Shown here: piece after piece, positions 25,390 to 63,033 of the stretch
Numbering within the stretch: position 1 is the first letter of the stretch
Layout: the number at the start of each line of letters is the position of its first letter
Origin: Astrocystis sublimbata
Lineage: Eukaryota; Ascomycota; Sordariomycetes; Xylariales; Xylariaceae
DNA length: 64,000 nt
Assembly: GCA_022453515.1 (NCBI GenBank)
Contig: JAJNNY010000004.1
Span: 992,001-1,056,000, forward strand
Reading direction: 5' to 3'
Position numbers and translations under genes: made by a program
Notes under the pieces: model-generated
What the model was told of the DNA's origin: nothing
The model's database searches: none
What the model saw: the letters and a program-made list of their open reading frames with translations, nothing else

Positions 25390-25500
25390 TTATTATTACC
25401 TAGTTGTATAGTAGTTATTTAAATATTGTTTATTAATTATACAATGGTTATACTATAATTAAAGGAATGTTTATTATATCATATCCCAACTTAGAAAACA
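25371..25500. repeat. AT-rich repeat at left edge of palindrome arm
   Basis: AT-rich block containing TTTATTGTTTTATTATTACC, then TTAAATATTG and TTATACAATGGTTATAC. It aligns by eye with the flanks of the central inverted repeat (43,884-43,970 and the complement of 44,335-44,420) and with 8,620-8,725. The identity between palindrome arms starts inside it, at 25,390. Likely a decayed transposon fragment (inference). Confidence 0.65.
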
Positions 25501-26757
25501 AACAAGACCGTCTCATGCATTTTATATAGCGCCTTAGCAAAACCTCCCACGATTGTGATTAAGACAACGCCCACTGATTAGTTCTCCGCTCTTGTCGCTA
25601 CAAGATCAGATATAGACATTCTTCCAATAACTGCCACTAAGACTAGAATTCTGCAGATGAGTGCTTTCCACAAGGTCGGAAGATAGGCGAGACGTCGAGC
25701 CCAGCCGGGACGAATGTGGCGTTCATGGTTCCGGTCAGATCTCCGGGCAGGACATACCCAGTGACTTTTAGTGGCTTCGCTTTGAAGTAATCCACATTTT
25801 GTGACTGTCTGCTCGTTATTATGCCAACCAGTATGTTATGAATACCTACAGATCTCCTCATAGAAGAGATACGCCCAGTCAACGTTCGTGGTGATTACCT
25901 ACTTTTACTATGGTGAAGCTAGACACTGCTTTGCTCATCAACCAATTACAATACGCTTGTTTGCTGTGATCTGACAGCTATTGGTGTCCAACGGGTCATT
26001 CCATTTGTCCCCCCCCTCTTGATTCCGTCTCATGCGAATCTTAGTGTGAACTTCATGCTTTGGAAGCTCGCCATGTTCCTGTCCAGGATGACCTTACTCA
26101 GAACGTTTCATTTGGACTTCGTTCACAGGTCATGGGAAGGTCACAGCATCATCTTTTCATTTACCTTCGAAAGGTCCGAGGGTCGGGATGTGATTAATTT
26201 GTCGTGCTGGATTGGGTCATGATGCCTGTATAATCACAAGCTGTGGCTGTGGGCTAACAATACACTATTGGCGCTGTCTGCATGCACTGCAGAGCCATGC
26301 TAGGAGAGACAGCTGTAGGGACAAAGTCGAACGGTATCATAGAAACGACAAGGATTCACTTGAATTACATATTTGCTCCGTATAATAATGAATGTTTCAC
26401 GTGTAACTTGCCCATCCAAGCCCTTGAGCAGCTATATAGCTCGACTGTCAGAATCGAGGCGAAGCCACGAGCATTATGGAAGGGGCTATTAACATAGGGA
26501 ATGTTCCTAGGTTGGTGGAAGTATGAAATGGCGTACACGTATTCGCACTCAATCACAGCAAATTGGAAACTTAATAACATGTCAACATGTTCAGTGGTGT
26601 ATTGGAGAATCATATTTATTCATTCATTCGTCATAAAGTATGAAGAGCGTCCTCCTTCCTCGGGATCATCAGCACAACGTCCGACCCATCCCAAAAAGGT
26701 CGACATTCGTTTTCCACTTGCTGGCTACACCTTCAAAGACGTCGCTTCTCAGCGAAC
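25501..26757. other. Gene-poor outer end of arm A
   Basis: A minus-strand open frame of 79 codons at 25,643-25,882 contains a readable stretch (GYVLPGDLTGTMNATFVPAG) but no family I recognise and no clear splice partners; it may be a gene remnant. The rest shows no gene. The same sequence recurs inverted at 61,547-62,803 and direct at 63,034-64,000. Confidence 0.4.
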
Positions 26758-27279
26758 TTAAACCTTAAGGTGGAAAGAGCGAGGGGAGTCGCCACCGAAG
26801 CCGTACTCGGCGGCGAAGCTGTAATACCACTCGCTGCCGTTGCGGTTATCCTGGGTCGCAACCTTCCAGGTGTAGCTCGAGTCGGTGAACTTGACAGCCT
26901 CTGAATCGTAGGCATATCCGTTAGCAAAGAAAGCAAGCAAGCAGGAAAATTGAAGTTCGCCAGCGAATCGAAGGTTTTATTTTTGTAAACATAAAATAAA
27001 AGAAGACTTACCATCGAGAACAACGTTAATACCCTTGTAGTCGTAGACGGGCGAGCCAAGAGGGCCGCCATTGGGCGACACGAGGATGGGATTGGCCAGG
27101 AAGGAGCTGACGCTCAGCTTGAAGGTGTCCTCGCGGGTCTCCTTGTCCCAGGTCAGGACGAAGTCGGTGCCCTCCTCATAGTAGGCGTCGACGGGGATGT
27201 CGTTGGTGAAGTGGAGGGCCTGCGAGACGCCGGCGAGGAGGGAGGGAACCGCCAATAACGAGATCAGGGACTTGACCAT
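26758..27279 (-). CDS. Small secreted Kre9/Knh1-type Ig-like protein (arm copy 1)
   Basis: Minus-strand exons 27279-27012 and 26900-26758 give 136 residues; the 111-nt intron has a GTAAGT donor. The signal peptide is MVKSLISLLAVPSLLAGVSQA, followed by LHFTNDIPVDAYYEEGTDF, LTWDK, DTFKLSVSSF and a C-terminal FAAEYGFGGDSPRSFHLK. This is the N-terminal Ig-like fold of the Kre9/Knh1 and Ser-Thr-rich GPI-anchored surface protein family. Unlike most members there is no Ser/Thr-rich tail and no GPI signal; the domain stands alone. Likely a small secreted wall-associated protein. There is an identical inverted copy at 61,025-61,546. Confidence 0.75.
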
Positions 27280-29073
27280 TTTGTCGTTGGTTTTGATGTG
27301 AATTGTGAGTTGTGGAGTTGGAATATGAGGATGAAGCGGCGTACTCTGGCTCAAAAGAAGGAGAGATCTTCACGAGCACACGGCACTGTTTATATATGCA
27401 TATTCTTCCGAACTTTGAATACCTACCTCCCTCTATGTCATCGCGTGTTTTTCAACGTAGTAGTATGTGATCCATCATGCCAAGAAGGTGTGCGGCCGCA
27501 GGTGACAGCGATGACAAGCGCCAATGCTTTTCGCGATCTAAACAAACGGAACAGTAATCGTCGTCAGGCTACCGCCGCCGTACCTGGATCCTGCAGGAGA
27601 AACGGGAAGGTCGTTGACTTGGGTGAAAATGCTTGCGTGACATTATAAGATTTTAGCAAACCCGATCTGATATATATATAGGTCCCATTATCAGGTGGTC
27701 ACAGTCCGAGCCAGCCAATGGGCCACACCGAAGCAACATACCAAACGAAGCTTGCTTTTCACAATATCATCGTCGGATGATGGAAGGATGCAATACATGC
27801 CACAATACGTAGAAAGGGGACTGACTATCCACGTTGACTAATTCAGATATTTTAGGTTCGGAGAATTATCAATTGGCCGACTGCCGTAAACCAACTATGC
27901 CGAATTGCGTGAAAGACGGGAGCTGAAGCAGGAAGCATCTCCACCGAACCATTCGTCGAAGGCGAAGAACCATACGATATCTGGGCAAGACTGCAGCAGT
28001 CCAGCGAATGCCGAGGGAATGCTGCTGTCGTGTGGGATCTGCGCTAGATGAGCGCTAGGTTTGAAGACCGGTGGTGTAATTACACGTGGAGAATCTTGAA
28101 AAGTCGTGAGGAGGATCAGAGAATTACCTAATGGGCTGTGAAGTGGCGCTTACAGTTTATGCAGGAGACGCATCGATATACTTTATCTAGGTAGATACTT
28201 AAGGAAGGACGGAATCCTGGAGTTCAGCTCTTGGTAGGTAAGGTAGCCGCCGAGCTGAAGGGCTGGCTCGGCTGGCAACGTTGCTGCCACTCCACACATT
28301 TAAGCATATATGACGGCCGGGGTGTCGGCTTCTACCCGGCGGCGTGCGCAGCTTGCCTGTCCTGCATGGCCAATCACGGTACAGCTGTATATATCAAAAA
28401 CCTAGTACCTAGGTACCTACCAGGTATCACTAACGATATACAGATCGTACATAATATGGTCTCAAAAAAGACATTATAACGATCATGGTATTCATTTCAT
28501 TTGTATCGCTGTTGGCAGGTTGTTCCTCCCGGTGGTAGCTCGGTAGGTAGCCCACCAGAAAGAATGATGCAATGGGCATGTTTCCCAAGCACTGGCGGGG
28601 TACTAAGTACTTACTTAGATCCGATATGCAGGGATGGTACCTGGGCGATCAACCGGGGGGGGGAGAGGACCCCGTTCAAGCGCCGCCCAAGCTTTTATTG
28701 CACCACATAGCAACGCATCTGAACACCAAAACATCCATCGTGGTAGTTTGTATACCCCATATCAATACACCCGGCCGTCGCAACACAAACTACCTATCCA
28801 AACCTGTCACCGGTACACCGCAACCCACGTTTATTCCCATTTGATCTTTTGGTTATACCGAAATACAAGAAAGGGAGCAAACAGCGGAAAGACAACAGGC
28901 AAAACTTGAGGTAACCACAACAATACCAAACCACAACCCAACCCAACCACCATTCCCCTGCAACCTCACTATCACCACCAGACAATGATAAGAACTGCCA
29001 TGCTGACCAAGATATCACAATGTCGCAGCCATCAATCACCACACAGAGTCCTCTCCAACGACTCGAGGCCAAG
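27280..29073. promoter_or_regulatory. Divergent intergenic region between Kre9-like gene and MOB1
   Basis: About 1.8 kb that should hold both promoters. It includes TAGGTA-type clusters (about 28,185-28,250 and 28,400-28,425), a run of nine G near 28,655 and several short unsupported open frames. Mirrored at 59,231-61,024. Confidence 0.4.
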
Positions 29074-30029
29074 ATGGCCTCCTTCGTAACCACAGTGTAT
29101 GTTATGTTATGTACCCAACCAACATCCACAACCACAACGGTCTCCACGATACCCCTCCTCCTTCAAACCCACCGAAACCAATCCAAATCCACCATAACGA
29201 CAAGCCCGATACTCGAAACTCTCGAAATCTCCGAAGCAAAAGAGACCGAAGCTGACATGTTCCCACGAGCTTAGGAACCAGCGCGCGCGCAACCAGTTCC
29301 GCTCGCGGACGGGCAAGGGAGGCAACACGAGCTACCAGCTGCGCCAGTATGCCGAGGCCACGCTGGGCGGCGGCAGCCTGCGCAAGGTCGTCAAGCTGCC
29401 CGACGGCGAGGACGAGAACGAGTGGTTGGCCGTCAACATGGTCGACTTCTACAACCAGATCAACCTGCTCTACGGCGCCATCACCGAGTTCTGTTCGCCC
29501 CAGTCGTGCCCCGAGATGAAGGCCACCGACGAGTATGTTCCCTTTTTCTCCTCTCCCATTTTTCATGCAAAAAGAAGTACTACATATAATAGACATGATG
29601 TACACACACACACATATATATATAGCCCCATTTAACTAACATCCCCCAACCAGATTCGAATACCTCTGGCAAGACTCGGACCAATACAAGCGCCCCACCA
29701 AGATGGCCGCGCCGCAATACATCGAGCAGCTCATGTCCTGGGTGCAAGGCTACATCGACAACGAGAGCGTCCTGCCCTCGCGCATCGGCGTGCCCTTCCC
29801 CAAGTCCTTCCCCCAGACCGTCCGCCAGATCTTCAAGCGCATGTACCGCGTCTACGCCCACATCTACTGCCACCACTACCCCGTCATCCGCGAGCTGGGC
29901 CTCGAGCCCCACCTGAATACGAGCTTCAAGCAGTACGTTCTCTTCATCGACGAGCACGGCCTGGCGAGCGGGAAGGACTTCTGGGGCCCCCTGGGCGATC
30001 TGGTCGAGAGTATGTTGCGGAGCGATTGA
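29074..30029 (+). CDS. MOB1: MOB1 family kinase activator (arm copy 1)
   Basis: Exons 29074-29096, 29275-29532 and 29654-30029 give 218 residues starting MASFVTTV, which matches the usual Mob1 N-terminus. An in-frame ATG at 29,020 would add 18 residues and cannot be excluded. The Mob fold is complete: [57 protein letters not shown], and the zinc site formed by CSPQSC and the two His of HIYCHH. Mob1 binds and activates NDR/LATS-type kinases (Dbf2/Sid2) in mitotic exit and septation. Intron 2 (29533-29653) contains a CA/TA dinucleotide tract near 29,603-29,622. Divergent from the Kre9-like gene. Confidence 0.96.
29603..29624. repeat. CA/TA microsatellite in MOB1 intron 2
   Basis: A short run of alternating CA followed by TA dinucleotides, inside the intron. 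The mirrored copy is at 58,680-58,701. Its length in both arms appears the same, which is notable because such tracts mutate fast. Confidence 0.75.
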
Positions 30030-30895
30030 GCTCTGCGTGTTGGGTGTTGGGGGGAGCTGGACAGGTCTAGGCATGCGAAGTATTCGGCACATGCACGCTA
30101 TTGGCCAGGGAATTTGATTTCGAACACTTTGTGGTTGGGCAGTGGAACGAAGTGGTGAACGGTGACAATCATAGAAGAGCAGGCGTTGTTCAGTGGGCGT
30201 TGTTGATGCATGGTTACGAATCACGTCTGTTTTGGGGGTGGTGATGGAGGGTAATCGGCCAAGGCGTTATGGACAAGCTCATTATTTGCATCTGATGGAA
30301 GCGGACTACCTACGAGGTAGGCAGGGTAATAGACGTTGCAGGGCTTTGTATTCAGGGGTATCGCCTACGATACATGAACTCATGAAATGGAAACCCTTCT
30401 TTCCTTCGTGGTCTGTAAGCAGTGCCATTTTTTCTGCTGTAAAGTCCCTTCAATGGCCGGCTAAGTTTCACGAAATAAAGTAAAAGCATCATAACTCGTA
30501 CATACGCCAACTGAACTGACGCCCAATCCAGGCAGTCGCCGTGGACATGAAATGAAACAGCCCACCCAACAAACTCCTGCGGGGTAAAAAGGCTACATAC
30601 AGAAAAGCAGCAGACTAGATATTAGCTATGGTTTCAAGCAAAGCTAGATTTTGATCTGAACCATCAAAAGTAGCGTTTCTGGCGATTATGAAGAGTTTGC
30701 GCGCATGTTCGGCGTGCTGGCGTGCATTTAACCTTGCGGTCGGGGGTCGGGGTTAGTACTTGGCACGAACGGTCACGAACGGTCTCGACTTGTGTTCCCC
30801 CATGTGGAATACTTTTGGTGTCATGAAGTTTTCACGGCGGTTGGGTTTCTTGTACACGGCGCGATTCTTTCCCAATCCTGGGAAGGCAACTCGTC
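30030..30895. other. Convergent intergenic region MOB1/SLC25
   Basis: About 870 bases between convergent genes; presumably 3' UTRs. Short open frames are unsupported. Mirrored at 57,409-58,274. Confidence 0.4.
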
Positions 30896-32209
30896 TCACG
30901 GCGTGTCCTTGAGGGCATTGATCCTCTTCTTGAAGAACTCAAATGCGGAGAAGAACACGGCATTCACCGCAGCAGAACGTCCCATGGACACGCCGAGTCC
31001 GCGATACATGTCCCGTCTGAAGAATTCAATCTTAGGAATAGGGACCGTTTCACCCTTGGAATACATCAGAGCATTTCGTTGGTAGATGCTCTTGACCGAA
31101 TCAATGGGGTCTGGAAGGGATTAGCTTTGGCACGCCTACCTGCCACGAGGGGTGGAACCTACAAATCAATGCCCAGGAGACGATACCGCAGAGACCACCG
31201 GCCGCGAGAACGGCGAGCGGGTTCTTATGGGCATCTGTGCCGCTGAACGTAGTCAAGAGTTGCTTGCTGCTCTCGTACGTCGCGAAATAGATCCCTGTTC
31301 CAAGGGTGTCCCTCACTAATGGCTGTTAGTTCGCGGTGAAGGTGAATCGGAGGCTCTGACGGAGAATCGGCTTACTCAAGTGCAGATTGAGCCCAGTGTA
31401 CATTCCAGCGTAGCCTCGATGCTTCACAATATTTTGCAAGGTCTTGAGTGTGCCCTTGTTATGGTAACTAAGTGCAATAGCTTGCTTCTTCGGATCTACG
31501 TTTTTCTGGTTCGCCATCAGGACCGACACTTGCGCGCTCAGCTTCGTTAATTCGAAAGGGCCTAATGTCATTTTCGGACCAGTCAGCGCTCGCTTGCAGA
31601 AAGAGTCGTGGTGATGTTTTCTTACAAGCAATTAGAGTAATGCCAGAGCCGGCTGTGGCTCCAGCAGCCCCAAAGCAGGCAATGGTGCCCATATTGGGGT
31701 AAGCACCGTTCTTGTTCACATGCTCAAGTGGGCAAAATCCAACATTCTTGCCCATCCAGTCGGAATAGACGTATTTCGAACGTTGGTAGATGGAAAATGA
31801 TATCGTACGAACAAGAGTAACACTTGCGAGGGGAGCAGTGACACCTATCCAAAAAGCAATCAAATTAGCAGCAGCTTCAAGCACGATAGAGCGCTGGAGC
31901 GTGTGAGGAGGCATGCCAAGTCGTACCTCGAAAGAAACCTCGCATTCCCTCGGAACTGTAGGTTGATCTCATGCAATGCCGCACGCCATCGTAAGGGTAG
32001 GTTTGCATGCGGGTCTTGACGCTGTCGAGAGGAAAGGCGGAGAGGGTGGACATGACACTGGCGAGGGAGGCAGAGGTCTCGGTGCGGTAACGCTTTATCC
32101 AGCGGCGCTGATCTTCGTGGCCGACACTGGGGGCACTGTGCTGCTGAGGCATGGTGCGGGTGAGGAGAGGAGCCGTGGTGACATTTTGTATGCTTGTTTC
32201 CGCGGGCAT
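30896..32209 (-). CDS. Mitochondrial carrier (SLC25) family protein (arm copy 1)
   Basis: Minus-strand exons 32209-31927, 31844-31626, 31561-31376, 31315-31163 and 31110-30896 sum to 1,056 nt, 351 residues. All three carrier repeats keep the Px[DE]xxK signature: PLDSVKTRMQ, PFELTKLSAQ and PIDSVKSIYQ. The glycine-rich helices FGAAGATAGSGITLIAC and LAAGGLCGIVSWALI and the final RGLGVSMGRSAAVNAVFFSAFEFFKK are typical inner-membrane carrier elements. Introns fall between repeats and just before the second and third signatures. The transported metabolite cannot be assigned. The upstream leader on this strand is pyrimidine-rich. Confidence 0.93.
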
Positions 32210-34342
32210 GGCTCTTGGTCAACCGGCGGCGTATTGCGGTGGAGGAGCTTCAGACAATGGCCTCGAGACGAGGGCCAGAGTCATCGGCGCGGTCGCGATA
32301 CAGTGGCGTCGGCTGCCGACAAGTTGTGTGCCATCAAGATCCCTAGTTGAGAGGACTCGATGGTTGGGTATGGTGGTTTTTGGGGGGGAATTGGAGAATT
32401 GAGAAGGTGGGAGAAGGAGAGAAGGTCGCGTTGGTTGCAGGATTGGAGAATGGTTGGATAAGTTGCAGGTGGTTGAGTATGTGGTGAGTGGTGATGTTGC
32501 GGGGTTGCAATGGCGAAGTTGACTCTCCAGGTAGGGTCCGTCTGTAGGTAGCGTGGAGGTAGGTAGGTTAAGTAGGAGCAATGTAGGTCGTTGCCTTTAA
32601 TGACCCCGGACGACCTTCCACGCTTGCCTTGGATGGCTTGGGCGCCTGCCCTAGGAGGGAGGCACTTTAGCAGTTTAGGTTGGAACTCGGCCGTCTTGAC
32701 TTGGTATTGACTTGGGGAGGAGGAGCTGCAGCCAGCCAGGTGAGAGAGGCGAGCCAGGAAGGGACGGAGGCTAGTCTAGTCTACCGTCGAAAGCGTGCCA
32801 GCATGTGGCCTTCCTGTCGAGATGTGTGCATTCTGTCTGGAGACCGGGGAGCAAGGACGGGGAGGATCTACCGTGCTAAGTACTGGATACTACGTCCAGG
32901 TGTGCATCAGGTGCTGGTGCGCAGGTACCCGGTACTAAAGCTATAGTTGGACTAATAGTGGGGTCGATACATCAGGCGGTTTGCGGGGTTGTCAATCGGT
33001 CCTAAACACCTTTCTGTTTGAAGCCTGGTCATATATGATACCTACGCCTAGGTACGCGTATATACGTGCCGCAGCACCTGCTGTAGCATGGCTACACGGG
33101 GGACAAAAGACCCAGGAAACGTCAAACAATGAAGAGGGCTGGCTTTGAGGCCTTCTCCATGCCATCATTGAAGCAGAAAGCAGAGCATTGGTTGGTTCTT
33201 CGATAGGTGCTGTCTTGCTGTACCGTGCAAAGAACAAAAAGATGCATAAAACATGTCACGTTTCGACCTGCTCATTGGCAGGAAGTCGCCGGGTTGGGAA
33301 GCCGGGGGACATCCCTAGCTCTCCACAATTCGTGTGGTTCGAGATGCAGCTCCAGAAGCTCGGATGTGAGCTTGCATTTGGAGGTCCATCGAGCGTGCCG
33401 AGCGTGCGTGTTTGCAAAGTGATAGGTATCCTTAGAATCATGCTGTTGCGTCTTCGCCATCTCTCCATTATGGAACGATCTCATTTGCAATCGGCGCATT
33501 TTCATCTGAGGAACACAGATGGGGGCGATGCCTTACTATCCAACCTTGCGATAACACACAGCATCTATAGCGACCGAGCTTGCCAATAAGACGCAAACGA
33601 AATAAGCCATAGGGCTCTATCGGACACAATGTTTCTCTTGAGAAACTAGCTGGTGAAACATCCATGCGTGATTACTGAACAGTGAAAGGGCACGCCGTGA
33701 ATCTCCTGCGGTTTGCTTATCTCCAGACTAGTACGTACATCCATCTACCTATATGTATGTCGGCAGACGTCATGTCATACCTAGTATTACCTAGCAGGTA
33801 GGTACGCTAACTCCCTAGACACATCATGTCGTCGTCGACAGTTAAGGTATTCGATGATAATTTGTATCCAAGGGTACTGCCTAACATCAGCCCAAATCGT
33901 ACATCATGGTGGATCATGATGAGTATTGACACTTTCTGTGCCTCTGTTGGCTTGCAGTAGGCAGGCAATAATAAGCACTGGAGCATCAAGCTATTCTGCT
34001 ATACCCGACTGAGCGAGAACCCAAGGGATGGCACATGTTCTCCATTGCGATTGGCACAGCTGTCCCCTTCTGGGTAGGGTATGCATTTGCGATCACACGG
34101 TGGTCTGCCTCATACCATGCAGTCCGACGTCGATTTCTTTGAAGGAGCCTTGGATGAGGAAAGCCATGGCGGCGATCGATTCGCCCAACCGATTAGACCA
34201 ATGGGTATGTGAGCGCCACATGGCGTCGCAAACGCGACACCCTCTGCTCAGGATGCTACCGTTGAGGTCGAGACATATAGGCAACCGTGGTTGGGGATAG
34301 CCGTCTCGTGGGTGGGTGAGTAGCACCAACTCCATTGCTGAT
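32210..34342. other. Long gene-free region in arm A
   Basis: About 2.1 kb. The first ~400 bases are the SLC25 promoter and leader. The remainder holds several TAGGTA/TACCTA clusters and open frames up to 133 codons (33,188-33,589) lacking domains or codon-like composition. Mirrored at 53,962-56,094. Confidence 0.4.
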
Positions 34343-34793
34343 TCATCGCAAACATAGACCCATGGTCTGGTTGAGCATAGCGACGGTCATATCATAATGG
34401 GTATAGCCCGTGTCGAGTATGTGATCCTCGAAGGGTGCTCTAAGCTCTGTTAGCAATGGCAGTACTCGAGATGTCGCGGCGGAATACTTACATCTTTTTT
34501 GTTGCTCGCACCGTCTGTAACTGTCTCCAGCCTTCGGGGCTCTCGAAACGGTGCCAGGCTATTATGATCAGGTTCTTGAGTACGCGGTGTTCCAAGCCAC
34601 GCTCCCGTGCTGCGGCATCAAGAAAACGAATGGTCCGTGCTATCCTCTGGAAATTGAATTCGGCACCTTTCTCACGAAATGCTCGTCGCAGCTGATCACG
34701 AGCAGTATAACGAGCGGGTTTCGCGAACTGAACAGCGTGGAGCAGGCCGCGATAGAGGTGGCGATAAGCGTGAAGGATCTTGGGATCAGTCAT
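34343..34793 (-). CDS. DUF1763-like small protein with LYR-type motif (arm copy 1)
   Basis: Minus-strand exons 34793-34492 and 34439-34343 give 132 residues; intron 52 nt with GTAAGT donor and a GCTAAC branch. The protein begins MTDPKILHAYRHLYRGLLHAVQF, continues RDQLRRAFREKG, then RIARTIRFLDAAARERGLEHRVLKNLIIIAWHR, the pattern I associate with the fungal DUF1763 family. The LYR near residue 13 with following basic residues and a Phe resembles LYR-motif mitochondrial assembly factors (inference). An upstream in-frame ATG at 34,868 is not used because the extension lacks this pattern. Exon 2 encodes a short acidic tail. Confidence 0.78.
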
Positions 34794-35820
34794 GGTCGTG
34801 TGTTCTTGGGATGAGCGAACCAAGCACCAATTGTCCAATGCACTTCCTCCAGCAACATCTATGCCCAATCACGTGTGGGTGTGAGTACAGAGTACGAGGA
34901 CGAGTAGGTTAAATTCCGACTGATTTTGACGATGGAGCCTGACATCCAGGCTGAGTGGGCGCTCTAGCGGCTGAAGCGCCGGTAGCTGATCTTTAGCGCA
35001 GAACGTTGGGCGACACGCAGGTCTCGCAGGTCTGTCTCCCCATACACGCTAGGTAGTGCGCATGTCGCTTGTGCTTCGTACTCAGCAGGTGGAATATCGC
35101 CGGCAAAGCCTGACTGATTCCGCGAGCCGCTAAGGTTGCTGAGGCAAACTAATGCGACTCGGAGTGCCCGGAAATAGAAGGACAGAATCTGTGGTGGGAT
35201 GCTAACATTGAATACCTCGGAAATACTGGGAAACTGGAGAACAGAACGTCCTTACTCAAGTACCTGGTGGGTACCTGTATGGCGGGGTGCATCCACGTCG
35301 ACACCGTCCTTTGCTGCCACCAAAAGGGCATTGTGGACGAGTAGATGGAATTCGAACGTGCTAGGTAAGGTAGTTGGAAGTGAGGGCCGACTAGTAGCAT
35401 ACAAAGTGCCCAATCACAGTTGGTGGTAGTTGTGAACATGTAAAAAGGTAAGTACCTACTTAGTAGGTAGCACCTGCCAACGTAAACAACCGCCAGATAC
35501 AGTCAGTACCTACCCACATGCTCTTTGTCTTTGACCTTGAGCGCAGACGACACAACACTCTCTTCGCCGCCTCGTCGGATATCGTATCCACAAACTTACC
35601 TATAATCAACATCCTCATAATAACATACTAGACCGAGCCCGCCACGAGACCCCTGAGCGACGGGCCTTGGGGACAGCCATTATCTGCGTTGACAATGGTG
35701 TCATGACATGACATGACAAGATCGTACTACCTACCGACTATCTATCCCCTTTGCCATACCGCCATACCGCCATTCGCCTGCCTCAGTGCCTACCTCCTAC
35801 CTAAGCTAATTCGCTAGCCA
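34794..35820. promoter_or_regulatory. Divergent promoter region DUF1763 / CHY-RING
   Basis: About 1 kb with promoters in both directions. Contains TAGGTA clusters at about 35,440-35,520 and tandem CCATACCG-type repeats at about 35,753-35,773. Mirrored at 52,484-53,510. Confidence 0.4.
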
Positions 35821-37886
35821 ATGACGTCTCTCGTAACAGAGTTGCTGGTCAACCCGGTCCTTCGTCAAGCACGCCGCTTTTCCTTTTCACGTCCGTCCTT
35901 TGCATCTGATCTGCCTCATCCAGATTCTCCGCGACGCACCGCGCAAGCCTGTCCTCTTTCGCCCCAAGATGAGCCCATAGTCGAGACGGACGAGGCTCAT
36001 TCTTTGCAAACCGACTCTGAAGACAGTGCATCCTCGCGACGCTCTTCCTGCACTTCTGTCGTTACCAGCCCGTCCTTGAACACCGATCGGGTGGATGGGG
36101 CGCATAGTTCGCCGCACAATACCGCCATTCCCGTATCCCCTGACACTTCCGTCGTTGATGCTCAAGTATCCAGCCCGCGAAACACGCCGCCCGAGATCGT
36201 CGCTTCCAGTATGAATACACACGACCCACCAGCCTCGCCCTCTATGCGGAACCACACACCTCTACCGGAAGATGATGGGATGAGTTCGATGAGAAAGCGT
36301 ATACTGGCTATTCAAGCCCAGGGAATCGCCAACAACGACAAAGCCTATTTGATGCACCAGTTGCTACAAGAAGGATATACACGCTCTCAGGCCCGCATTA
36401 CACTCGGACAGCCACTTTCCCCCGCCAGTCCCCGACCTTCCGAGGCAAAACAAGCCTCGCATAGTCCTGGGCCATTAGAGTCATTCAAATTCTGGCACAA
36501 TGCGTTAGGCGAGGCCGAGGTCGGCGACGAGTTCGCCTTGACAGACCAGGATCTCGAGCCCACATTTGTGCCCAAGGAACAACCCGCGGAGTCGACCTCG
36601 GATGCGGCGGATGGTGATATCAACGACGAGAAGCTCCTCGGCTGTGAACATTACAGGCGCAACGTGAAGTTACAATGCTCAACATGCGACCGATGGTATA
36701 CGTGCCGATTCTGCCATGACAATGTAGAGAATCACACTCTTATCAGGAAGGAGACGCGGAATATGTTATGTATGTTCTGCGGGACCGCCCAGAAAGCTAG
36801 TCATACATGTGTGTCGTGTGAAGCGCCGGCGGCAAGTTACTACTGCGACATATGCAAACTATGGAATGATGACCCCAATAAGCCTTGCTATCATTGCAGT
36901 GACTGTGGTATTTGCAGAATAGGGCACGGCATTGGAAAAGACTTCTACCACTGCAAGGTAAGTAAGCCCCTCTACCCTCTTCTCAGACAAGTCCCCGACT
37001 CATCACCGAGTAGAAATGTTGTGCCTGCATTGCCATATCGACTCAATCGGATCACAAGTGCATCGAGCGCGCCATAGATTGCGACTGCCCCATATGCGGT
37101 GACTACATGTTTACATCGCCCAAACGTGTATGCTTCATGCGTTGTGGGCACAGCATACACCGAGATTGCCTGGATGAGCACCTGAAAACTTCTTACAAGT
37201 GCCCCATCTGCAACAAGAGTTTACTCAACATGGAATCCCAGTTCCGCAACCTGGACCTCTCTATCCAAGCGCAGCCAATGCCACCCGAGTTCAAAGATAC
37301 ACGCGCCATGGTTCTATGTCATGATTGCTCGGCCAAGAGCTCGACCATTTACCATTGGCTTGGCTTAAAATGTGGTGTCTGCCAGTCTTTCAACACCGCC
37401 CAACTTCAGATCATTGGTCTGGATGGCAATGAAGTCAACGAGAACGACCTGGCGGTGGGACGTAGTGCACAGGTGCCGGGCATGGTTCACCTTGGACACT
37501 CCGACTTGATCGGAATGGATGGTCTTGCTACACGCGGCCGTCGCCGACATTCATCCTCAGTTCCGGCCTCAGCTTTCGTGGGTGCAGACATTGCCTTCTT
37601 CCCGACTGACAGACGGGGACGCTCCGTGTCGCCGATTCCCACGCCGGGGCGCTTGTTGCATGCCTCCGGCGGTGGTGGTTACTTTGACTTAGAAGGAGAT
37701 GAGGACAACGGGGACATTTTCGGCTTCTGGAGGCGCTTCCCGCGCAGCTTAACGAGCCATGACGAAGAAGACGACGATGACGCTGGTGAGTCCAGCGACG
37801 AAATGACCTCGGACGACGAGATGGGAGATGATGATGACGCCGAGGAATCCGAGGACGATGATTTCGACTTGCTGGGTCATAGATAG
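35821..37886 (+). CDS. CHY zinc finger / RING E3 ubiquitin ligase, RCHY1 (PIRH2)-like (arm copy 1)
   Basis: Exons 35821-36957 and 37014-37886 encode about 669 residues. Residues 1-270 are Ser/Pro-rich and low complexity. The CHY zinc finger starts near residue 274 (GCEHYRRNVKLQCSTC, then WYTCRFCHD). The CTCHY region follows (CEAPAASYYCDICKLWNDD, HCSDCGICRIGHG) and is interrupted by the intron within the Cys cluster, DFYHCK joined to KCCACIA. The RING has CPICGDYMF, MRCGHSIHRDCLDEHL and YKCPICNK, then a C-terminal zinc ribbon (VLCHDCSAKS, LKCGVCQSF). The C-terminus is an Asp/Glu-rich tail. RCHY1-type proteins are E3 ubiquitin ligases. All zinc ligands I can locate are present. Confidence 0.93.
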
Positions 37887-38369
37887 AGTCGGCACCTGGA
37901 TGCGGCATGGTTTTTCCGAGAAAGGACATCCGATCGGCGTTTTTGGGATTGGCGTTGGCATTTTAGTCTTGTGATGATTGATGATACCAAAACATGAACT
38001 ACCGGCGCTCAGGTTGCTTTTGTATTTTCTTTCTCTCCCTTCGTGTTTGTCTGTATGGCTGTCATTGGGATTTGTGCTGCATGGCTTGGAATATGCATCT
38101 GCCAGGATCAACTGATGAACGGGTAAAACTGGATATAATCACTATTCGGACAATCGGAAATCCTCACTCTTGTCATACGATATGTTAGGCTTGATGAAAT
38201 ATACGATATTGAATTCATGATGTTACACTGCTTTCCTTGTCCGAGAAGGATTAACAGAAGTCCCCTGACTGTGAACACCGGACGCCTTGCTCAGCCATTT
38301 CGCGAAATCAGAATGCCCTCTCTCGGCTTCTCTAACCGCTGCCATGCACCACTTCATCTTACATCTCTC
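37887..38369. other. Convergent intergenic region CHY-RING/MZT1
   Basis: About 480 bases between convergent genes, presumably 3' UTRs. Mirrored at 49,935-50,417. Confidence 0.4.
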
Positions 38370-38867
38370 TCATTGATTGCTACCAGAAGCTGCGGCGTTA
38401 GCGAAGTTGACCTTCTGCGCCTCTTTGCGCAGATACTGTACGACGTTCTGGACACCATTTTATCAGTACGAGATTGACGATACGTTACTACCGCCCTCTA
38501 GAAATCCGGCATAGGATGTTAAGTAGCTAGGGGAAGGGAAAGGCAAGAAGACTCACCGCAAGCGCCTCGGGATTCACGCCGTTCTCGACCATGGAGATGC
38601 AGACTGAGAGGGTCCGGCGGTCGAGGTGGCAGTTCTGTTTAGTTGACGGGTCAGTTTGAGTGCCCGATGACGGAAGTAATGGGTTGATGTATCATGTAAG
38701 ATATGTCACATGAGATAATTAAGGTAATGTAGGCAAGTTTCAATGGAGGTTAGGTGGTAGAAGGCACGCACTAGGATTGTGGATATCTCGTGTAGAATGT
38801 CGACTGCCTGCCGAGCGGCATCTTGCTTTTGATTGTCACCCGGCGGGGCAGGCGGTGGTGGTGGCAT
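38370..38867 (-). CDS. MZT1: Mitotic-spindle organizing protein 1 (MOZART1) (arm copy 1)
   Basis: Three short minus-strand exons, 38867-38772, 38634-38557 and 38447-38370, give 83 residues. After a proline-rich start ([12 protein letters not shown]) the sequence [13 protein letters not shown] / [23 protein letters not shown] / [10 protein letters not shown] is the MOZART1 helical core. MZT1 binds the N-terminal region of gamma-tubulin complex proteins and recruits them to spindle poles. The exon pattern (two of exactly 78 nt) is too short for simple open-frame detection. Intron donors are GTGCGT and GTGAGT. Confidence 0.93.
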
Positions 38868-47500: not shown

Positions 47501-47586
47501 TCCTCTGGCTTTTCAGCTCCGTATGGGATGTGCGAAAGGCGTCCTGATAAGCCAACAACTGACTCGAAGAGGCGGCGTTCAGTCAT
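44544..47586 (-). CDS. RRN6: Rrn6-like RNA polymerase I factor (inverted copy 2)
   Basis: Exons 47586-45488 and 45429-44544; the probable in-frame 51-nt intron is at 47462-47412. Translation identical to the gene at 40,718-43,760. Its 3' end faces the other copy across the centre, so the two RRN6 copies are convergent, 783 bp apart, and read-through transcripts would be able to form hairpins. Confidence 0.85.
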
Positions 47587-49934: not shown

Positions 49935-50417
49935 GAGAGATGTAAGATGAAGTGGTGCATGGCAGCGGTTAGAGAAGCCGAGAGAGGGCATTCTGATTTC
50001 GCGAAATGGCTGAGCAAGGCGTCCGGTGTTCACAGTCAGGGGACTTCTGTTAATCCTTCTCGGACAAGGAAAGCAGTGTAACATCATGAATTCAATATCG
50101 TATATTTCATCAAGCCTAACATATCGTATGACAAGAGTGAGGATTTCCGATTGTCCGAATAGTGATTATATCCAGTTTTACCCGTTCATCAGTTGATCCT
50201 GGCAGATGCATATTCCAAGCCATGCAGCACAAATCCCAATGACAGCCATACAGACAAACACGAAGGGAGAGAAAGAAAATACAAAAGCAACCTGAGCGCC
50301 GGTAGTTCATGTTTTGGTATCATCAATCATCACAAGACTAAAATGCCAACGCCAATCCCAAAAACGCCGATCGGATGTCCTTTCTCGGAAAAACCATGCC
50401 GCATCCAGGTGCCGACT

Positions 50418-52483: not shown

Positions 52484-53510
52484 TGGCTAGCGAATTAGCT
52501 TAGGTAGGAGGTAGGCACTGAGGCAGGCGAATGGCGGTATGGCGGTATGGCAAAGGGGATAGATAGTCGGTAGGTAGTACGATCTTGTCATGTCATGTCA
52601 TGACACCATTGTCAACGCAGATAATGGCTGTCCCCAAGGCCCGTCGCTCAGGGGTCTCGTGGCGGGCTCGGTCTAGTATGTTATTATGAGGATGTTGATT
52701 ATAGGTAAGTTTGTGGATACGATATCCGACGAGGCGGCGAAGAGAGTGTTGTGTCGTCTGCGCTCAAGGTCAAAGACAAAGAGCATGTGGGTAGGTACTG
52801 ACTGTATCTGGCGGTTGTTTACGTTGGCAGGTGCTACCTACTAAGTAGGTACTTACCTTTTTACATGTTCACAACTACCACCAACTGTGATTGGGCACTT
52901 TGTATGCTACTAGTCGGCCCTCACTTCCAACTACCTTACCTAGCACGTTCGAATTCCATCTACTCGTCCACAATGCCCTTTTGGTGGCAGCAAAGGACGG
53001 TGTCGACGTGGATGCACCCCGCCATACAGGTACCCACCAGGTACTTGAGTAAGGACGTTCTGTTCTCCAGTTTCCCAGTATTTCCGAGGTATTCAATGTT
53101 AGCATCCCACCACAGATTCTGTCCTTCTATTTCCGGGCACTCCGAGTCGCATTAGTTTGCCTCAGCAACCTTAGCGGCTCGCGGAATCAGTCAGGCTTTG
53201 CCGGCGATATTCCACCTGCTGAGTACGAAGCACAAGCGACATGCGCACTACCTAGCGTGTATGGGGAGACAGACCTGCGAGACCTGCGTGTCGCCCAACG
53301 TTCTGCGCTAAAGATCAGCTACCGGCGCTTCAGCCGCTAGAGCGCCCACTCAGCCTGGATGTCAGGCTCCATCGTCAAAATCAGTCGGAATTTAACCTAC
53401 TCGTCCTCGTACTCTGTACTCACACCCACACGTGATTGGGCATAGATGTTGCTGGAGGAAGTGCATTGGACAATTGGTGCTTGGTTCGCTCATCCCAAGA
53501 ACACACGACC

Positions 53511-53961
53511 ATGACTGATCCCAAGATCCTTCACGCTTATCGCCACCTCTATCGCGGCCTGCTCCACGCTGTTCAGTTCGCGAAACCCGCTCGTTATACT
53601 GCTCGTGATCAGCTGCGACGAGCATTTCGTGAGAAAGGTGCCGAATTCAATTTCCAGAGGATAGCACGGACCATTCGTTTTCTTGATGCCGCAGCACGGG
53701 AGCGTGGCTTGGAACACCGCGTACTCAAGAACCTGATCATAATAGCCTGGCACCGTTTCGAGAGCCCCGAAGGCTGGAGACAGTTACAGACGGTGCGAGC
53801 AACAAAAAAGATGTAAGTATTCCGCCGCGACATCTCGAGTACTGCCATTGCTAACAGAGCTTAGAGCACCCTTCGAGGATCACATACTCGACACGGGCTA
53901 TACCCATTATGATATGACCGTCGCTATGCTCAACCAGACCATGGGTCTATGTTTGCGATGA
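53511..53961 (+). CDS. DUF1763-like LYR-type small protein (inverted copy 2)
   Basis: Exons 53511-53812 and 53865-53961; 132 residues identical to the first-arm gene. Confidence 0.78.
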
Positions 53962-56094
53962 ATCAGCAATGGAGTTGGTGCTACTCACCCACCCACGAGA
54001 CGGCTATCCCCAACCACGGTTGCCTATATGTCTCGACCTCAACGGTAGCATCCTGAGCAGAGGGTGTCGCGTTTGCGACGCCATGTGGCGCTCACATACC
54101 CATTGGTCTAATCGGTTGGGCGAATCGATCGCCGCCATGGCTTTCCTCATCCAAGGCTCCTTCAAAGAAATCGACGTCGGACTGCATGGTATGAGGCAGA
54201 CCACCGTGTGATCGCAAATGCATACCCTACCCAGAAGGGGACAGCTGTGCCAATCGCAATGGAGAACATGTGCCATCCCTTGGGTTCTCGCTCAGTCGGG
54301 TATAGCAGAATAGCTTGATGCTCCAGTGCTTATTATTGCCTGCCTACTGCAAGCCAACAGAGGCACAGAAAGTGTCAATACTCATCATGATCCACCATGA
54401 TGTACGATTTGGGCTGATGTTAGGCAGTACCCTTGGATACAAATTATCATCGAATACCTTAACTGTCGACGACGACATGATGTGTCTAGGGAGTTAGCGT
54501 ACCTACCTGCTAGGTAATACTAGGTATGACATGACGTCTGCCGACATACATATAGGTAGATGGATGTACGTACTAGTCTGGAGATAAGCAAACCGCAGGA
54601 GATTCACGGCGTGCCCTTTCACTGTTCAGTAATCACGCATGGATGTTTCACCAGCTAGTTTCTCAAGAGAAACATTGTGTCCGATAGAGCCCTATGGCTT
54701 ATTTCGTTTGCGTCTTATTGGCAAGCTCGGTCGCTATAGATGCTGTGTGTTATCGCAAGGTTGGATAGTAAGGCATCGCCCCCATCTGTGTTCCTCAGAT
54801 GAAAATGCGCCGATTGCAAATGAGATCGTTCCATAATGGAGAGATGGCGAAGACGCAACAGCATGATTCTAAGGATACCTATCACTTTGCAAACACGCAC
54901 GCTCGGCACGCTCGATGGACCTCCAAATGCAAGCTCACATCCGAGCTTCTGGAGCTGCATCTCGAACCACACGAATTGTGGAGAGCTAGGGATGTCCCCC
55001 GGCTTCCCAACCCGGCGACTTCCTGCCAATGAGCAGGTCGAAACGTGACATGTTTTATGCATCTTTTTGTTCTTTGCACGGTACAGCAAGACAGCACCTA
55101 TCGAAGAACCAACCAATGCTCTGCTTTCTGCTTCAATGATGGCATGGAGAAGGCCTCAAAGCCAGCCCTCTTCATTGTTTGACGTTTCCTGGGTCTTTTG
55201 TCCCCCGTGTAGCCATGCTACAGCAGGTGCTGCGGCACGTATATACGCGTACCTAGGCGTAGGTATCATATATGACCAGGCTTCAAACAGAAAGGTGTTT
55301 AGGACCGATTGACAACCCCGCAAACCGCCTGATGTATCGACCCCACTATTAGTCCAACTATAGCTTTAGTACCGGGTACCTGCGCACCAGCACCTGATGC
55401 ACACCTGGACGTAGTATCCAGTACTTAGCACGGTAGATCCTCCCCGTCCTTGCTCCCCGGTCTCCAGACAGAATGCACACATCTCGACAGGAAGGCCACA
55501 TGCTGGCACGCTTTCGACGGTAGACTAGACTAGCCTCCGTCCCTTCCTGGCTCGCCTCTCTCACCTGGCTGGCTGCAGCTCCTCCTCCCCAAGTCAATAC
55601 CAAGTCAAGACGGCCGAGTTCCAACCTAAACTGCTAAAGTGCCTCCCTCCTAGGGCAGGCGCCCAAGCCATCCAAGGCAAGCGTGGAAGGTCGTCCGGGG
55701 TCATTAAAGGCAACGACCTACATTGCTCCTACTTAACCTACCTACCTCCACGCTACCTACAGACGGACCCTACCTGGAGAGTCAACTTCGCCATTGCAAC
55801 CCCGCAACATCACCACTCACCACATACTCAACCACCTGCAACTTATCCAACCATTCTCCAATCCTGCAACCAACGCGACCTTCTCTCCTTCTCCCACCTT
55901 CTCAATTCTCCAATTCCCCCCCAAAAACCACCATACCCAACCATCGAGTCCTCTCAACTAGGGATCTTGATGGCACACAACTTGTCGGCAGCCGACGCCA
56001 CTGTATCGCGACCGCGCCGATGACTCTGGCCCTCGTCTCGAGGCCATTGTCTGAAGCTCCTCCACCGCAATACGCCGCCGGTTGACCAAGAGCC

Positions 56095-57408
56095 ATGCCC
56101 GCGGAAACAAGCATACAAAATGTCACCACGGCTCCTCTCCTCACCCGCACCATGCCTCAGCAGCACAGTGCCCCCAGTGTCGGCCACGAAGATCAGCGCC
56201 GCTGGATAAAGCGTTACCGCACCGAGACCTCTGCCTCCCTCGCCAGTGTCATGTCCACCCTCTCCGCCTTTCCTCTCGACAGCGTCAAGACCCGCATGCA
56301 AACCTACCCTTACGATGGCGTGCGGCATTGCATGAGATCAACCTACAGTTCCGAGGGAATGCGAGGTTTCTTTCGAGGTACGACTTGGCATGCCTCCTCA
56401 CACGCTCCAGCGCTCTATCGTGCTTGAAGCTGCTGCTAATTTGATTGCTTTTTGGATAGGTGTCACTGCTCCCCTCGCAAGTGTTACTCTTGTTCGTACG
56501 ATATCATTTTCCATCTACCAACGTTCGAAATACGTCTATTCCGACTGGATGGGCAAGAATGTTGGATTTTGCCCACTTGAGCATGTGAACAAGAACGGTG
56601 CTTACCCCAATATGGGCACCATTGCCTGCTTTGGGGCTGCTGGAGCCACAGCCGGCTCTGGCATTACTCTAATTGCTTGTAAGAAAACATCACCACGACT
56701 CTTTCTGCAAGCGAGCGCTGACTGGTCCGAAAATGACATTAGGCCCTTTCGAATTAACGAAGCTGAGCGCGCAAGTGTCGGTCCTGATGGCGAACCAGAA
56801 AAACGTAGATCCGAAGAAGCAAGCTATTGCACTTAGTTACCATAACAAGGGCACACTCAAGACCTTGCAAAATATTGTGAAGCATCGAGGCTACGCTGGA
56901 ATGTACACTGGGCTCAATCTGCACTTGAGTAAGCCGATTCTCCGTCAGAGCCTCCGATTCACCTTCACCGCGAACTAACAGCCATTAGTGAGGGACACCC
57001 TTGGAACAGGGATCTATTTCGCGACGTACGAGAGCAGCAAGCAACTCTTGACTACGTTCAGCGGCACAGATGCCCATAAGAACCCGCTCGCCGTTCTCGC
57101 GGCCGGTGGTCTCTGCGGTATCGTCTCCTGGGCATTGATTTGTAGGTTCCACCCCTCGTGGCAGGTAGGCGTGCCAAAGCTAATCCCTTCCAGACCCCAT
57201 TGATTCGGTCAAGAGCATCTACCAACGAAATGCTCTGATGTATTCCAAGGGTGAAACGGTCCCTATTCCTAAGATTGAATTCTTCAGACGGGACATGTAT
57301 CGCGGACTCGGCGTGTCCATGGGACGTTCTGCTGCGGTGAATGCCGTGTTCTTCTCCGCATTTGAGTTCTTCAAGAAGAGGATCAATGCCCTCAAGGACA
57401 CGCCGTGA
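56095..57408 (+). CDS. Mitochondrial carrier SLC25 family (inverted copy 2)
   Basis: Exons 56095-56377, 56460-56678, 56743-56928, 56989-57141 and 57194-57408; 351 residues, identical to the copy at 30,896-32,209 with all three carrier signatures intact. Confidence 0.93.
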
Positions 57409-58274
57409 GACGAGTTGCCTTCCCAGGATTGGGAAAGAATCGCGCCGTGTACAAGAAACCCAACCGCCGTGAAAACTTCATGACACCAAAAGTATTCCAC
57501 ATGGGGGAACACAAGTCGAGACCGTTCGTGACCGTTCGTGCCAAGTACTAACCCCGACCCCCGACCGCAAGGTTAAATGCACGCCAGCACGCCGAACATG
57601 CGCGCAAACTCTTCATAATCGCCAGAAACGCTACTTTTGATGGTTCAGATCAAAATCTAGCTTTGCTTGAAACCATAGCTAATATCTAGTCTGCTGCTTT
57701 TCTGTATGTAGCCTTTTTACCCCGCAGGAGTTTGTTGGGTGGGCTGTTTCATTTCATGTCCACGGCGACTGCCTGGATTGGGCGTCAGTTCAGTTGGCGT
57801 ATGTACGAGTTATGATGCTTTTACTTTATTTCGTGAAACTTAGCCGGCCATTGAAGGGACTTTACAGCAGAAAAAATGGCACTGCTTACAGACCACGAAG
57901 GAAAGAAGGGTTTCCATTTCATGAGTTCATGTATCGTAGGCGATACCCCTGAATACAAAGCCCTGCAACGTCTATTACCCTGCCTACCTCGTAGGTAGTC
58001 CGCTTCCATCAGATGCAAATAATGAGCTTGTCCATAACGCCTTGGCCGATTACCCTCCATCACCACCCCCAAAACAGACGTGATTCGTAACCATGCATCA
58101 ACAACGCCCACTGAACAACGCCTGCTCTTCTATGATTGTCACCGTTCACCACTTCGTTCCACTGCCCAACCACAAAGTGTTCGAAATCAAATTCCCTGGC
58201 CAATAGCGTGCATGTGCCGAATACTTCGCATGCCTAGACCTGTCCAGCTCCCCCCAACACCCAACACGCAGAGC

Positions 58275-59230
58275 TCAATCGCTCCGCAACATACTCTCGA
58301 CCAGATCGCCCAGGGGGCCCCAGAAGTCCTTCCCGCTCGCCAGGCCGTGCTCGTCGATGAAGAGAACGTACTGCTTGAAGCTCGTATTCAGGTGGGGCTC
58401 GAGGCCCAGCTCGCGGATGACGGGGTAGTGGTGGCAGTAGATGTGGGCGTAGACGCGGTACATGCGCTTGAAGATCTGGCGGACGGTCTGGGGGAAGGAC
58501 TTGGGGAAGGGCACGCCGATGCGCGAGGGCAGGACGCTCTCGTTGTCGATGTAGCCTTGCACCCAGGACATGAGCTGCTCGATGTATTGCGGCGCGGCCA
58601 TCTTGGTGGGGCGCTTGTATTGGTCCGAGTCTTGCCAGAGGTATTCGAATCTGGTTGGGGGATGTTAGTTAAATGGGGCTATATATATATGTGTGTGTGT
58701 GTACATCATGTCTATTATATGTAGTACTTCTTTTTGCATGAAAAATGGGAGAGGAGAAAAAGGGAACATACTCGTCGGTGGCCTTCATCTCGGGGCACGA
58801 CTGGGGCGAACAGAACTCGGTGATGGCGCCGTAGAGCAGGTTGATCTGGTTGTAGAAGTCGACCATGTTGACGGCCAACCACTCGTTCTCGTCCTCGCCG
58901 TCGGGCAGCTTGACGACCTTGCGCAGGCTGCCGCCGCCCAGCGTGGCCTCGGCATACTGGCGCAGCTGGTAGCTCGTGTTGCCTCCCTTGCCCGTCCGCG
59001 AGCGGAACTGGTTGCGCGCGCGCTGGTTCCTAAGCTCGTGGGAACATGTCAGCTTCGGTCTCTTTTGCTTCGGAGATTTCGAGAGTTTCGAGTATCGGGC
59101 TTGTCGTTATGGTGGATTTGGATTGGTTTCGGTGGGTTTGAAGGAGGAGGGGTATCGTGGAGACCGTTGTGGTTGTGGATGTTGGTTGGGTACATAACAT
59201 AACATACACTGTGGTTACGAAGGAGGCCAT
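58275..59230 (-). CDS. MOB1: MOB1 family kinase activator (inverted copy 2)
   Basis: Exons 59230-59208, 59029-58772 and 58650-58275; 218 residues identical to the first-arm copy. The CA/TA tract in intron 2 is also mirrored (58,680-58,701). The alternative upstream start is at 59,284. Confidence 0.95.
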
Positions 59231-61024
59231 CTTGGCCTCGAGTCGTTGGAGAGGACTCTGTGTGGTGATTGATGGCTGCGACATTGTGATATCTTGGTCA
59301 GCATGGCAGTTCTTATCATTGTCTGGTGGTGATAGTGAGGTTGCAGGGGAATGGTGGTTGGGTTGGGTTGTGGTTTGGTATTGTTGTGGTTACCTCAAGT
59401 TTTGCCTGTTGTCTTTCCGCTGTTTGCTCCCTTTCTTGTATTTCGGTATAACCAAAAGATCAAATGGGAATAAACGTGGGTTGCGGTGTACCGGTGACAG
59501 GTTTGGATAGGTAGTTTGTGTTGCGACGGCCGGGTGTATTGATATGGGGTATACAAACTACCACGATGGATGTTTTGGTGTTCAGATGCGTTGCTATGTG
59601 GTGCAATAAAAGCTTGGGCGGCGCTTGAACGGGGTCCTCTCCCCCCCCCGGTTGATCGCCCAGGTACCATCCCTGCATATCGGATCTAAGTAAGTACTTA
59701 GTACCCCGCCAGTGCTTGGGAAACATGCCCATTGCATCATTCTTTCTGGTGGGCTACCTACCGAGCTACCACCGGGAGGAACAACCTGCCAACAGCGATA
59801 CAAATGAAATGAATACCATGATCGTTATAATGTCTTTTTTGAGACCATATTATGTACGATCTGTATATCGTTAGTGATACCTGGTAGGTACCTAGGTACT
59901 AGGTTTTTGATATATACAGCTGTACCGTGATTGGCCATGCAGGACAGGCAAGCTGCGCACGCCGCCGGGTAGAAGCCGACACCCCGGCCGTCATATATGC
60001 TTAAATGTGTGGAGTGGCAGCAACGTTGCCAGCCGAGCCAGCCCTTCAGCTCGGCGGCTACCTTACCTACCAAGAGCTGAACTCCAGGATTCCGTCCTTC
60101 CTTAAGTATCTACCTAGATAAAGTATATCGATGCGTCTCCTGCATAAACTGTAAGCGCCACTTCACAGCCCATTAGGTAATTCTCTGATCCTCCTCACGA
60201 CTTTTCAAGATTCTCCACGTGTAATTACACCACCGGTCTTCAAACCTAGCGCTCATCTAGCGCAGATCCCACACGACAGCAGCATTCCCTCGGCATTCGC
60301 TGGACTGCTGCAGTCTTGCCCAGATATCGTATGGTTCTTCGCCTTCGACGAATGGTTCGGTGGAGATGCTTCCTGCTTCAGCTCCCGTCTTTCACGCAAT
60401 TCGGCATAGTTGGTTTACGGCAGTCGGCCAATTGATAATTCTCCGAACCTAAAATATCTGAATTAGTCAACGTGGATAGTCAGTCCCCTTTCTACGTATT
60501 GTGGCATGTATTGCATCCTTCCATCATCCGACGATGATATTGTGAAAAGCAAGCTTCGTTTGGTATGTTGCTTCGGTGTGGCCCATTGGCTGGCTCGGAC
60601 TGTGACCACCTGATAATGGGACCTATATATATATCAGATCGGGTTTGCTAAAATCTTATAATGTCACGCAAGCATTTTCACCCAAGTCAACGACCTTCCC
60701 GTTTCTCCTGCAGGATCCAGGTACGGCGGCGGTAGCCTGACGACGATTACTGTTCCGTTTGTTTAGATCGCGAAAAGCATTGGCGCTTGTCATCGCTGTC
60801 ACCTGCGGCCGCACACCTTCTTGGCATGATGGATCACATACTACTACGTTGAAAAACACGCGATGACATAGAGGGAGGTAGGTATTCAAAGTTCGGAAGA
60901 ATATGCATATATAAACAGTGCCGTGTGCTCGTGAAGATCTCTCCTTCTTTTGAGCCAGAGTACGCCGCTTCATCCTCATATTCCAACTCCACAACTCACA
61001 ATTCACATCAAAACCAACGACAAA

Positions 61025-61546
61025 ATGGTCAAGTCCCTGATCTCGTTATTGGCGGTTCCCTCCCTCCTCGCCGGCGTCTCGCAGGCCCTCCACTTCACCA
61101 ACGACATCCCCGTCGACGCCTACTATGAGGAGGGCACCGACTTCGTCCTGACCTGGGACAAGGAGACCCGCGAGGACACCTTCAAGCTGAGCGTCAGCTC
61201 CTTCCTGGCCAATCCCATCCTCGTGTCGCCCAATGGCGGCCCTCTTGGCTCGCCCGTCTACGACTACAAGGGTATTAACGTTGTTCTCGATGGTAAGTCT
61301 TCTTTTATTTTATGTTTACAAAAATAAAACCTTCGATTCGCTGGCGAACTTCAATTTTCCTGCTTGCTTGCTTTCTTTGCTAACGGATATGCCTACGATT
61401 CAGAGGCTGTCAAGTTCACCGACTCGAGCTACACCTGGAAGGTTGCGACCCAGGATAACCGCAACGGCAGCGAGTGGTATTACAGCTTCGCCGCCGAGTA
61501 CGGCTTCGGTGGCGACTCCCCTCGCTCTTTCCACCTTAAGGTTTAA
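61025..61546 (+). CDS. Small secreted Kre9/Knh1-type Ig-like protein (inverted copy 2)
   Basis: Exons 61025-61292 and 61404-61546; 136 residues identical to 26,758-27,279. Confidence 0.75.
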
Positions 61547-62803
61547 GTTCGCTGAGAAGCGACGTCTTTGAAGGTGTAGCCAGCAAGTGGAAAACGAATG
61601 TCGACCTTTTTGGGATGGGTCGGACGTTGTGCTGATGATCCCGAGGAAGGAGGACGCTCTTCATACTTTATGACGAATGAATGAATAAATATGATTCTCC
61701 AATACACCACTGAACATGTTGACATGTTATTAAGTTTCCAATTTGCTGTGATTGAGTGCGAATACGTGTACGCCATTTCATACTTCCACCAACCTAGGAA
61801 CATTCCCTATGTTAATAGCCCCTTCCATAATGCTCGTGGCTTCGCCTCGATTCTGACAGTCGAGCTATATAGCTGCTCAAGGGCTTGGATGGGCAAGTTA
61901 CACGTGAAACATTCATTATTATACGGAGCAAATATGTAATTCAAGTGAATCCTTGTCGTTTCTATGATACCGTTCGACTTTGTCCCTACAGCTGTCTCTC
62001 CTAGCATGGCTCTGCAGTGCATGCAGACAGCGCCAATAGTGTATTGTTAGCCCACAGCCACAGCTTGTGATTATACAGGCATCATGACCCAATCCAGCAC
62101 GACAAATTAATCACATCCCGACCCTCGGACCTTTCGAAGGTAAATGAAAAGATGATGCTGTGACCTTCCCATGACCTGTGAACGAAGTCCAAATGAAACG
62201 TTCTGAGTAAGGTCATCCTGGACAGGAACATGGCGAGCTTCCAAAGCATGAAGTTCACACTAAGATTCGCATGAGACGGAATCAAGAGGGGGGGGACAAA
62301 TGGAATGACCCGTTGGACACCAATAGCTGTCAGATCACAGCAAACAAGCGTATTGTAATTGGTTGATGAGCAAAGCAGTGTCTAGCTTCACCATAGTAAA
62401 AGTAGGTAATCACCACGAACGTTGACTGGGCGTATCTCTTCTATGAGGAGATCTGTAGGTATTCATAACATACTGGTTGGCATAATAACGAGCAGACAGT
62501 CACAAAATGTGGATTACTTCAAAGCGAAGCCACTAAAAGTCACTGGGTATGTCCTGCCCGGAGATCTGACCGGAACCATGAACGCCACATTCGTCCCGGC
62601 TGGGCTCGACGTCTCGCCTATCTTCCGACCTTGTGGAAAGCACTCATCTGCAGAATTCTAGTCTTAGTGGCAGTTATTGGAAGAATGTCTATATCTGATC
62701 TTGTAGCGACAAGAGCGGAGAACTAATCAGTGGGCGTTGTCTTAATCACAATCGTGGGAGGTTTTGCTAAGGCGCTATATAAAATGCATGAGACGGTCTT
62801 GTT

Positions 62804-63033
62804 TGTTTTCTAAGTTGGGATATGATATAATAAACATTCCTTTAATTATAGTATAACCATTGTATAATTAATAAACAATATTTAAATAACTACTATACAA
62901 CTAGGTAATAATAATTAATAATTTATTATTACCTAGTTGTATAGTAGTTATTTAAATATTGTTTATTAATTATACAATGGTTATACTATAATTAAAGGAA
63001 TGTTTATTATATCATATCCCAACTTAGAAAACA
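62804..63033. repeat. Second turning point: AT-rich repeat copies fused tail to tail
   Basis: The AT-rich repeat of 25,390-25,500 occurs inverted at 62,804-62,914 and direct at 62,923-63,033, separated by eight bases (62,915-62,922). Positions pair as 125,837 - x. Unlike the first centre, the arms are perfect right up to the short spacer. Confidence 0.9.

Follow-up and report, generated by a model that had tools for sequence, protein, structure and literature searches.

Does the palindrome in this part of the genome exist in the chromosome of the fungus, or did it arise on the way from the DNA to the assembly? The DNA considered here, referred to below as the window, is a stretch of 64,000 bases (C124:992,001-1,056,000) from an assembly of 42.6 Mb in 189 contigs, and the geometry beyond its borders was read from the adjoining 80 kb of the same contig, giving 144 kb in all. 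The initial annotation, which had described a palindrome of two arms, offered a recent rearrangement, an actively maintained structure and an assembly artefact as possible explanations. The last of these is the best supported, by folds at the ends of other contigs and by the errors at the first fold; a recent rearrangement survives as a minority rival, and a maintained structure is left without support. We therefore regard the region, which in the assembly reads as an inverted triplication, as an artefact assembled from fold-back long reads, with a probability of about 0.88.

Geometry of the repeated region and its genes

The mirrored arms are exactly as first described: positions 25,390-43,800 are the reverse complement of 44,504-62,914, with 0 differences in 18,411 bases, and a self-comparison of the window returns a 37.6-kb inverted match centred at about 44,152, the centre originally proposed. 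The earlier description was nevertheless incomplete, as it missed a second fold and a third copy. The same self-comparison reveals a second palindrome centre at 62,918.5, still within the window, and from 62,923 to 64,000 the sequence repeats the start of the first copy without a difference. This third copy extends past the edge of the window and ends at 81,709 in window numbering (C124:1,073,709). The layout of C124 is thus left flank, A1, A2', A3 and right flank. It is an inverted triplication bordered by unique sequence on either side, and its two folds, J1 and J2, lie 18.8 kb apart. In a three-way alignment the A3 core of 18,409 bases differs from the A1 and A2 cores solely by two 1-base indels in C runs, whereas at the first fold no two copies agree throughout their final ~376 bases. 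The elements of this arrangement are:

25,390-44,177, plus strand: copy A1; its core, 25,390-43,800, is identical to A2 and its last ~376 bases differ
44,180-62,914, minus strand: copy A2, inverted; core 44,504-62,914
62,923-64,000, plus strand: start of copy A3, whose end lies outside the window at 81,709
44,116-44,179, no strand: J1, the first fold, 64 nt unmirrored between the arms
62,915-62,922, no strand: J2, the second fold, AT-rich as judged by eye, with the 8 nt TTAATAAT separating perfect arms
43,801-44,503, no strand: zone of indel-rich, raw-read-like differences, ~700 bases round J1, with arms identical outside it
43,945-44,177, plus strand: initial ~235 bp of a DNA transposon that is degenerate and RIP-like and that breaks off at the fold
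44,180-44,357, minus strand: mirror copy of this transposon end
C124:1,073,472-1,075,341: full-length degenerate 1.87-kb transposon after A3, with ~50-bp inverted ends and 28% GC

A Pfam scan of 20 ORF pieces from arm A assigned a family to four (0 of 10 in one set and 4 of 10 in the other) and found none for the remaining 16. The initial annotation put eight complete multi-exon genes in each arm; three genes could be recognised from the four positive pieces, two of which belong to the CHY/RING zinc-finger protein:

35,818-37,886, plus strand: CHY/RING zinc-finger protein gene in A1, by Pfam; mirror copy 50,418-52,486, minus strand
39,331-39,894, minus strand: piece of a gene for the kinetochore protein Spc25 in A1, by Pfam; mirror copy 48,410-48,973, plus strand
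40,715-43,757, plus strand: gene for an RRN6-like RNA polymerase I initiation factor in A1, by its Pfam C-terminal domain and homologues
44,547-47,589, minus strand: mirror copy of the RRN6-like gene, with coordinates calculated from the identity of the arms

The nearest homologues of the RRN6-like protein are Xylaria proteins (64% to X. acuta), which marks the DNA as that of a Xylaria-like fungus. A search of the 64-kb window with bacterial settings returned no transfer RNAs, and a comparison of positions 40,000-46,000 with a plasmid collection in 'near' mode found no plasmid relative.

Folds on other contigs

The bias of a search led by the transposon at J1 was avoided by choosing contig starts and ends according to contig number. 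At least 2 of 19 starts recur inverted on their own contig (C20 and C120, among the best 40 of 105 candidates), as do at least 7 of 18 ends (C1, C40, C100, C130, C150, C160 and C170, among the best 40 of 96), so that at least 9 of the 37 contig ends sampled in this way, about a quarter, show an inverted recurrence. The sequence at the centre of each of these nine folds was read and is palindromic.

The transposon-led search uncovered palindrome centres at C45:8738, C38:3389, C57:1510, C114:449,975 and C7:59,996. On the first three of these contigs an arm of the palindrome reaches the very first base, and on C114 and C7 the last 791 and 801 bases, respectively, match the mirrored place at 100%; C169, found via the transposon, recurs inverted as well. 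Finally, C182 carries two folds, at ~97,701 and ~113,069, and hence also reads A-A'-A, so that the double fold of C124 is not unique. With C124 included, this makes 19 folds on 17 contigs, the arms between fold and contig end measuring 1.2-20.7 kb, or 0.3 kb at the second fold of C182. Turns of this kind are therefore scattered, as expected of fold-back reads, over many unrelated loci of one data set, namely the nine or more sampled ends and the further contigs. They also have a common setting: in 18 of the 19 cases the GC content of the surrounding 300-420 bases does not exceed 36%, a level as low as which is found in 2.9% of the 300-base windows from the 144 kb of C124.

Several other matches between contigs came to light. 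C100:10584-10884 and C182:112918-113218 carry the same fold point, which may be a real one, may recur among the reads or may have entered the assembly twice. The 17.5-kb contig C80 looks like a redundant copy, as pieces from its start and its end are matched at 100% and in the same orientation by C77:629,520-629,639 and 646,459-646,558. Matches at 100% likewise connect the start piece of C130 with C131 and the end piece of C1 with C56. C9:41443-41789 and C62:12-384 match the end of C110 and the start of C60, which at 7% GC is very AT-rich, and the C9 stretches occur side by side in both orientations.

The two turning points

At J1 the copies A1 and A2' both stop ~235 bp inside the transposon, which we take to be Tc1/mariner-like, putatively with TA target sites. 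Its longest reading frames are short, the only two of 70 codons or more having 91 and 86, and it is present in many copies throughout the genome (at least 93 match rows, with several rows per copy). The element has RIP-like dinucleotide ratios (TA/AT 1.45), whereas arm A, at 0.72, does not, and no RIP-like mutations separate the three copies of A although the adjoining transposon bears them. If the triplication were real, it would consequently have to have arisen after RIP was last active in a sexual cycle.

The differences around J1 are of another kind. With A3 taken as the true sequence, the 378 bases at the end of A1 show 6 substitutions and 11 indel events, and the 316 bases at the end of A2 show 13 and 23, respectively. 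Quality is poorer past the turn than ahead of it, and transversions account for 14 of the 19 substitutions in the two ends. Comparison of the A3 transposon with family copies on C157, C146 and C86, on the other hand, yields 328 substitutions, nearly all of them transitions, and 15 indel events. The proportion of indels to substitutions in the junction zone differs from that in the transposon family with a Fisher p of 5e-24, or 3e-10 for A1 alone, values that are too small because the three family comparisons have one common reference. The error zone stops abruptly and gives way to full identity, and as a whole it has the look of unpolished single-read sequence. J2 has no such zone, with only 2 mismatches within 50 bases of its centre, and few errors occur at some of the other folds (C45 and C57); this weakens the argument from errors at these three places and leaves that from recurrence unaffected.

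Both turns return on the opposite strand within 200 bp, as fold-back reads do, with 64 unpaired nt at J1 and 8 at J2. The site corresponding to J1 in A3 was recognised, by eye and after the fact, as an 8-bp inverted repeat with a spacer of 47 nt, 63 bp in total, and the chance of an inverted-repeat match of at least 8 bp is ~0.0009 per random fold in this element. The repeat would suit a strand that folded back and acted as its own primer better than two strands read in succession. The surroundings of J2, also judged by eye, are AT-rich and quasi-palindromic and do not cleanly fit a junction at short inverted repeats. A missed PacBio adapter was considered and rejected for both folds: the 64 nt of J1 are transposon sequence, and the 8 nt of J2 are too short for such an adapter.

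Fold-back reads as the probable source, and competing explanations

The artefact is favoured because fold-backs recur at unrelated contig ends and because J1 carries errors like those of raw reads, and further by the identity over 18,411 bases outside the J1 zone, the non-RIP character of arm A and the AT-rich setting of the folds. The true chromosome most likely contains left flank, A, transposon and right flank, once. As we infer the course of events, fold-back reads, in which a strand is followed by its own complement, would have come from library preparation, whole-genome amplification or sequencing, and would have turned at J1 and J2 and elsewhere at mostly AT-rich places. The assembler would then have threaded them as A-A'-A, an extension through folds that probably happened often at contig ends and in the present case internally. 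Polishing with reads that suit every copy alike may have made the three cores (nearly) identical, and may have failed to mend the ~700 bases round J1 because genuine reads fit A3 better.

Such reads have precedents. The Breakinator paper (PMC12870357) puts fold-backs at ~0.55-0.6% of ONT genomic reads. It describes them as recurring at the same places in some data sets, and their second segment as resuming on the other strand no more than 200 bp from the turn, in many cases after few or no intervening bases, much as on C124. Whole-genome amplification, according to the Pacasus study (PMC6218980), makes palindromic chimeras that enter assemblies as false inverted duplications; like the C124 structure these are long and inverted. 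C124 departs from single fold-back reads in having two folds in one contig with unique flanks, an arrangement that one such read alone does not produce and that weakens the artefact reading. It is weakened further because PMC12870357 saw virtually no fold-backs in PacBio HiFi data and few recurrent ones in recent ONT genomic data.

The alternative that fares best, though we consider it improbable, is a real and recent inverted triplication of the ODIRA type. In the assembly the triplication is interstitial, its middle copy is inverted, both flanks are retained and the copies are equal, which is the A-A'-A arrangement with kept flanks that PMC4689423 gives for an ODIRA product. J1, with short inverted repeats and arms within ~100 bp of each other, also resembles an ODIRA junction, and its 8-bp repeat and overall 63 bp fall inside the range of real ones, for which PMC10766183 gives repeats of 2-14 bp and, with the spacer included, mostly 40-80 bp. 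A fold point common to C100 and C182 is what a real fold would be expected to produce, and nanopore accuracy, according to PMC7229812, also drops past real inverted-duplication junctions. The explanation is at odds with the many terminal fold-backs of the same kind on unrelated contigs of this assembly and with the raw-read-like errors at J1. Moreover, the copies are free of RIP-like change in a genome whose transposons look RIP-mutated, and none of the three recognised genes is evidently selectable. A broader form of this idea, in which the isolate would possess many real hairpin-derived inverted duplications at AT-rich sites, often in RIP-mutated transposons, and C124 would be an ODIRA-type triplication too recent for RIP, appears less probable still.

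Two further explanations we hold to be very improbable. If gene conversion had preserved an old palindrome, in the manner of mammalian Y chromosomes, the 100% identity of the arms across 18.4 kb would be accounted for, but conversion would have to skip just the ~376 bases next to J1, with indel-type errors left in them, copies of this kind should be a target of RIP, and the third copy is nearly identical as well. That the transposon at J1 made the palindrome, through a hairpin or aberrant transposition, might be surmised from the six contigs besides C124 that fold within copies of the same family (C45, C38, C57, C114, C7 and C169); these, however, were found through that very family, their fold points vary from ~235 bp to more than 1 kb from the element end, J2 has no such element among the matches listed, and among the nine number-sampled folds C40 alone lies near a partial match (best 40 of 79 candidates).

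The reading of C124 as an artefact of fold-back reads has consequences for the use of this genome. The contrast between indels at the junction and transitions in a RIP-mutated transposon lying at the fold offers a simple test, applicable without reads, that distinguishes a raw-read junction from natural divergence. The assembly should be used with the warning in mind that many of its contig ends apparently carry false inverted duplications and that one or more false triplications apparently lie inside a contig. In studies of gene counts or copy number, such an artefact would triple RRN6, Spc25 and the CHY/RING protein.
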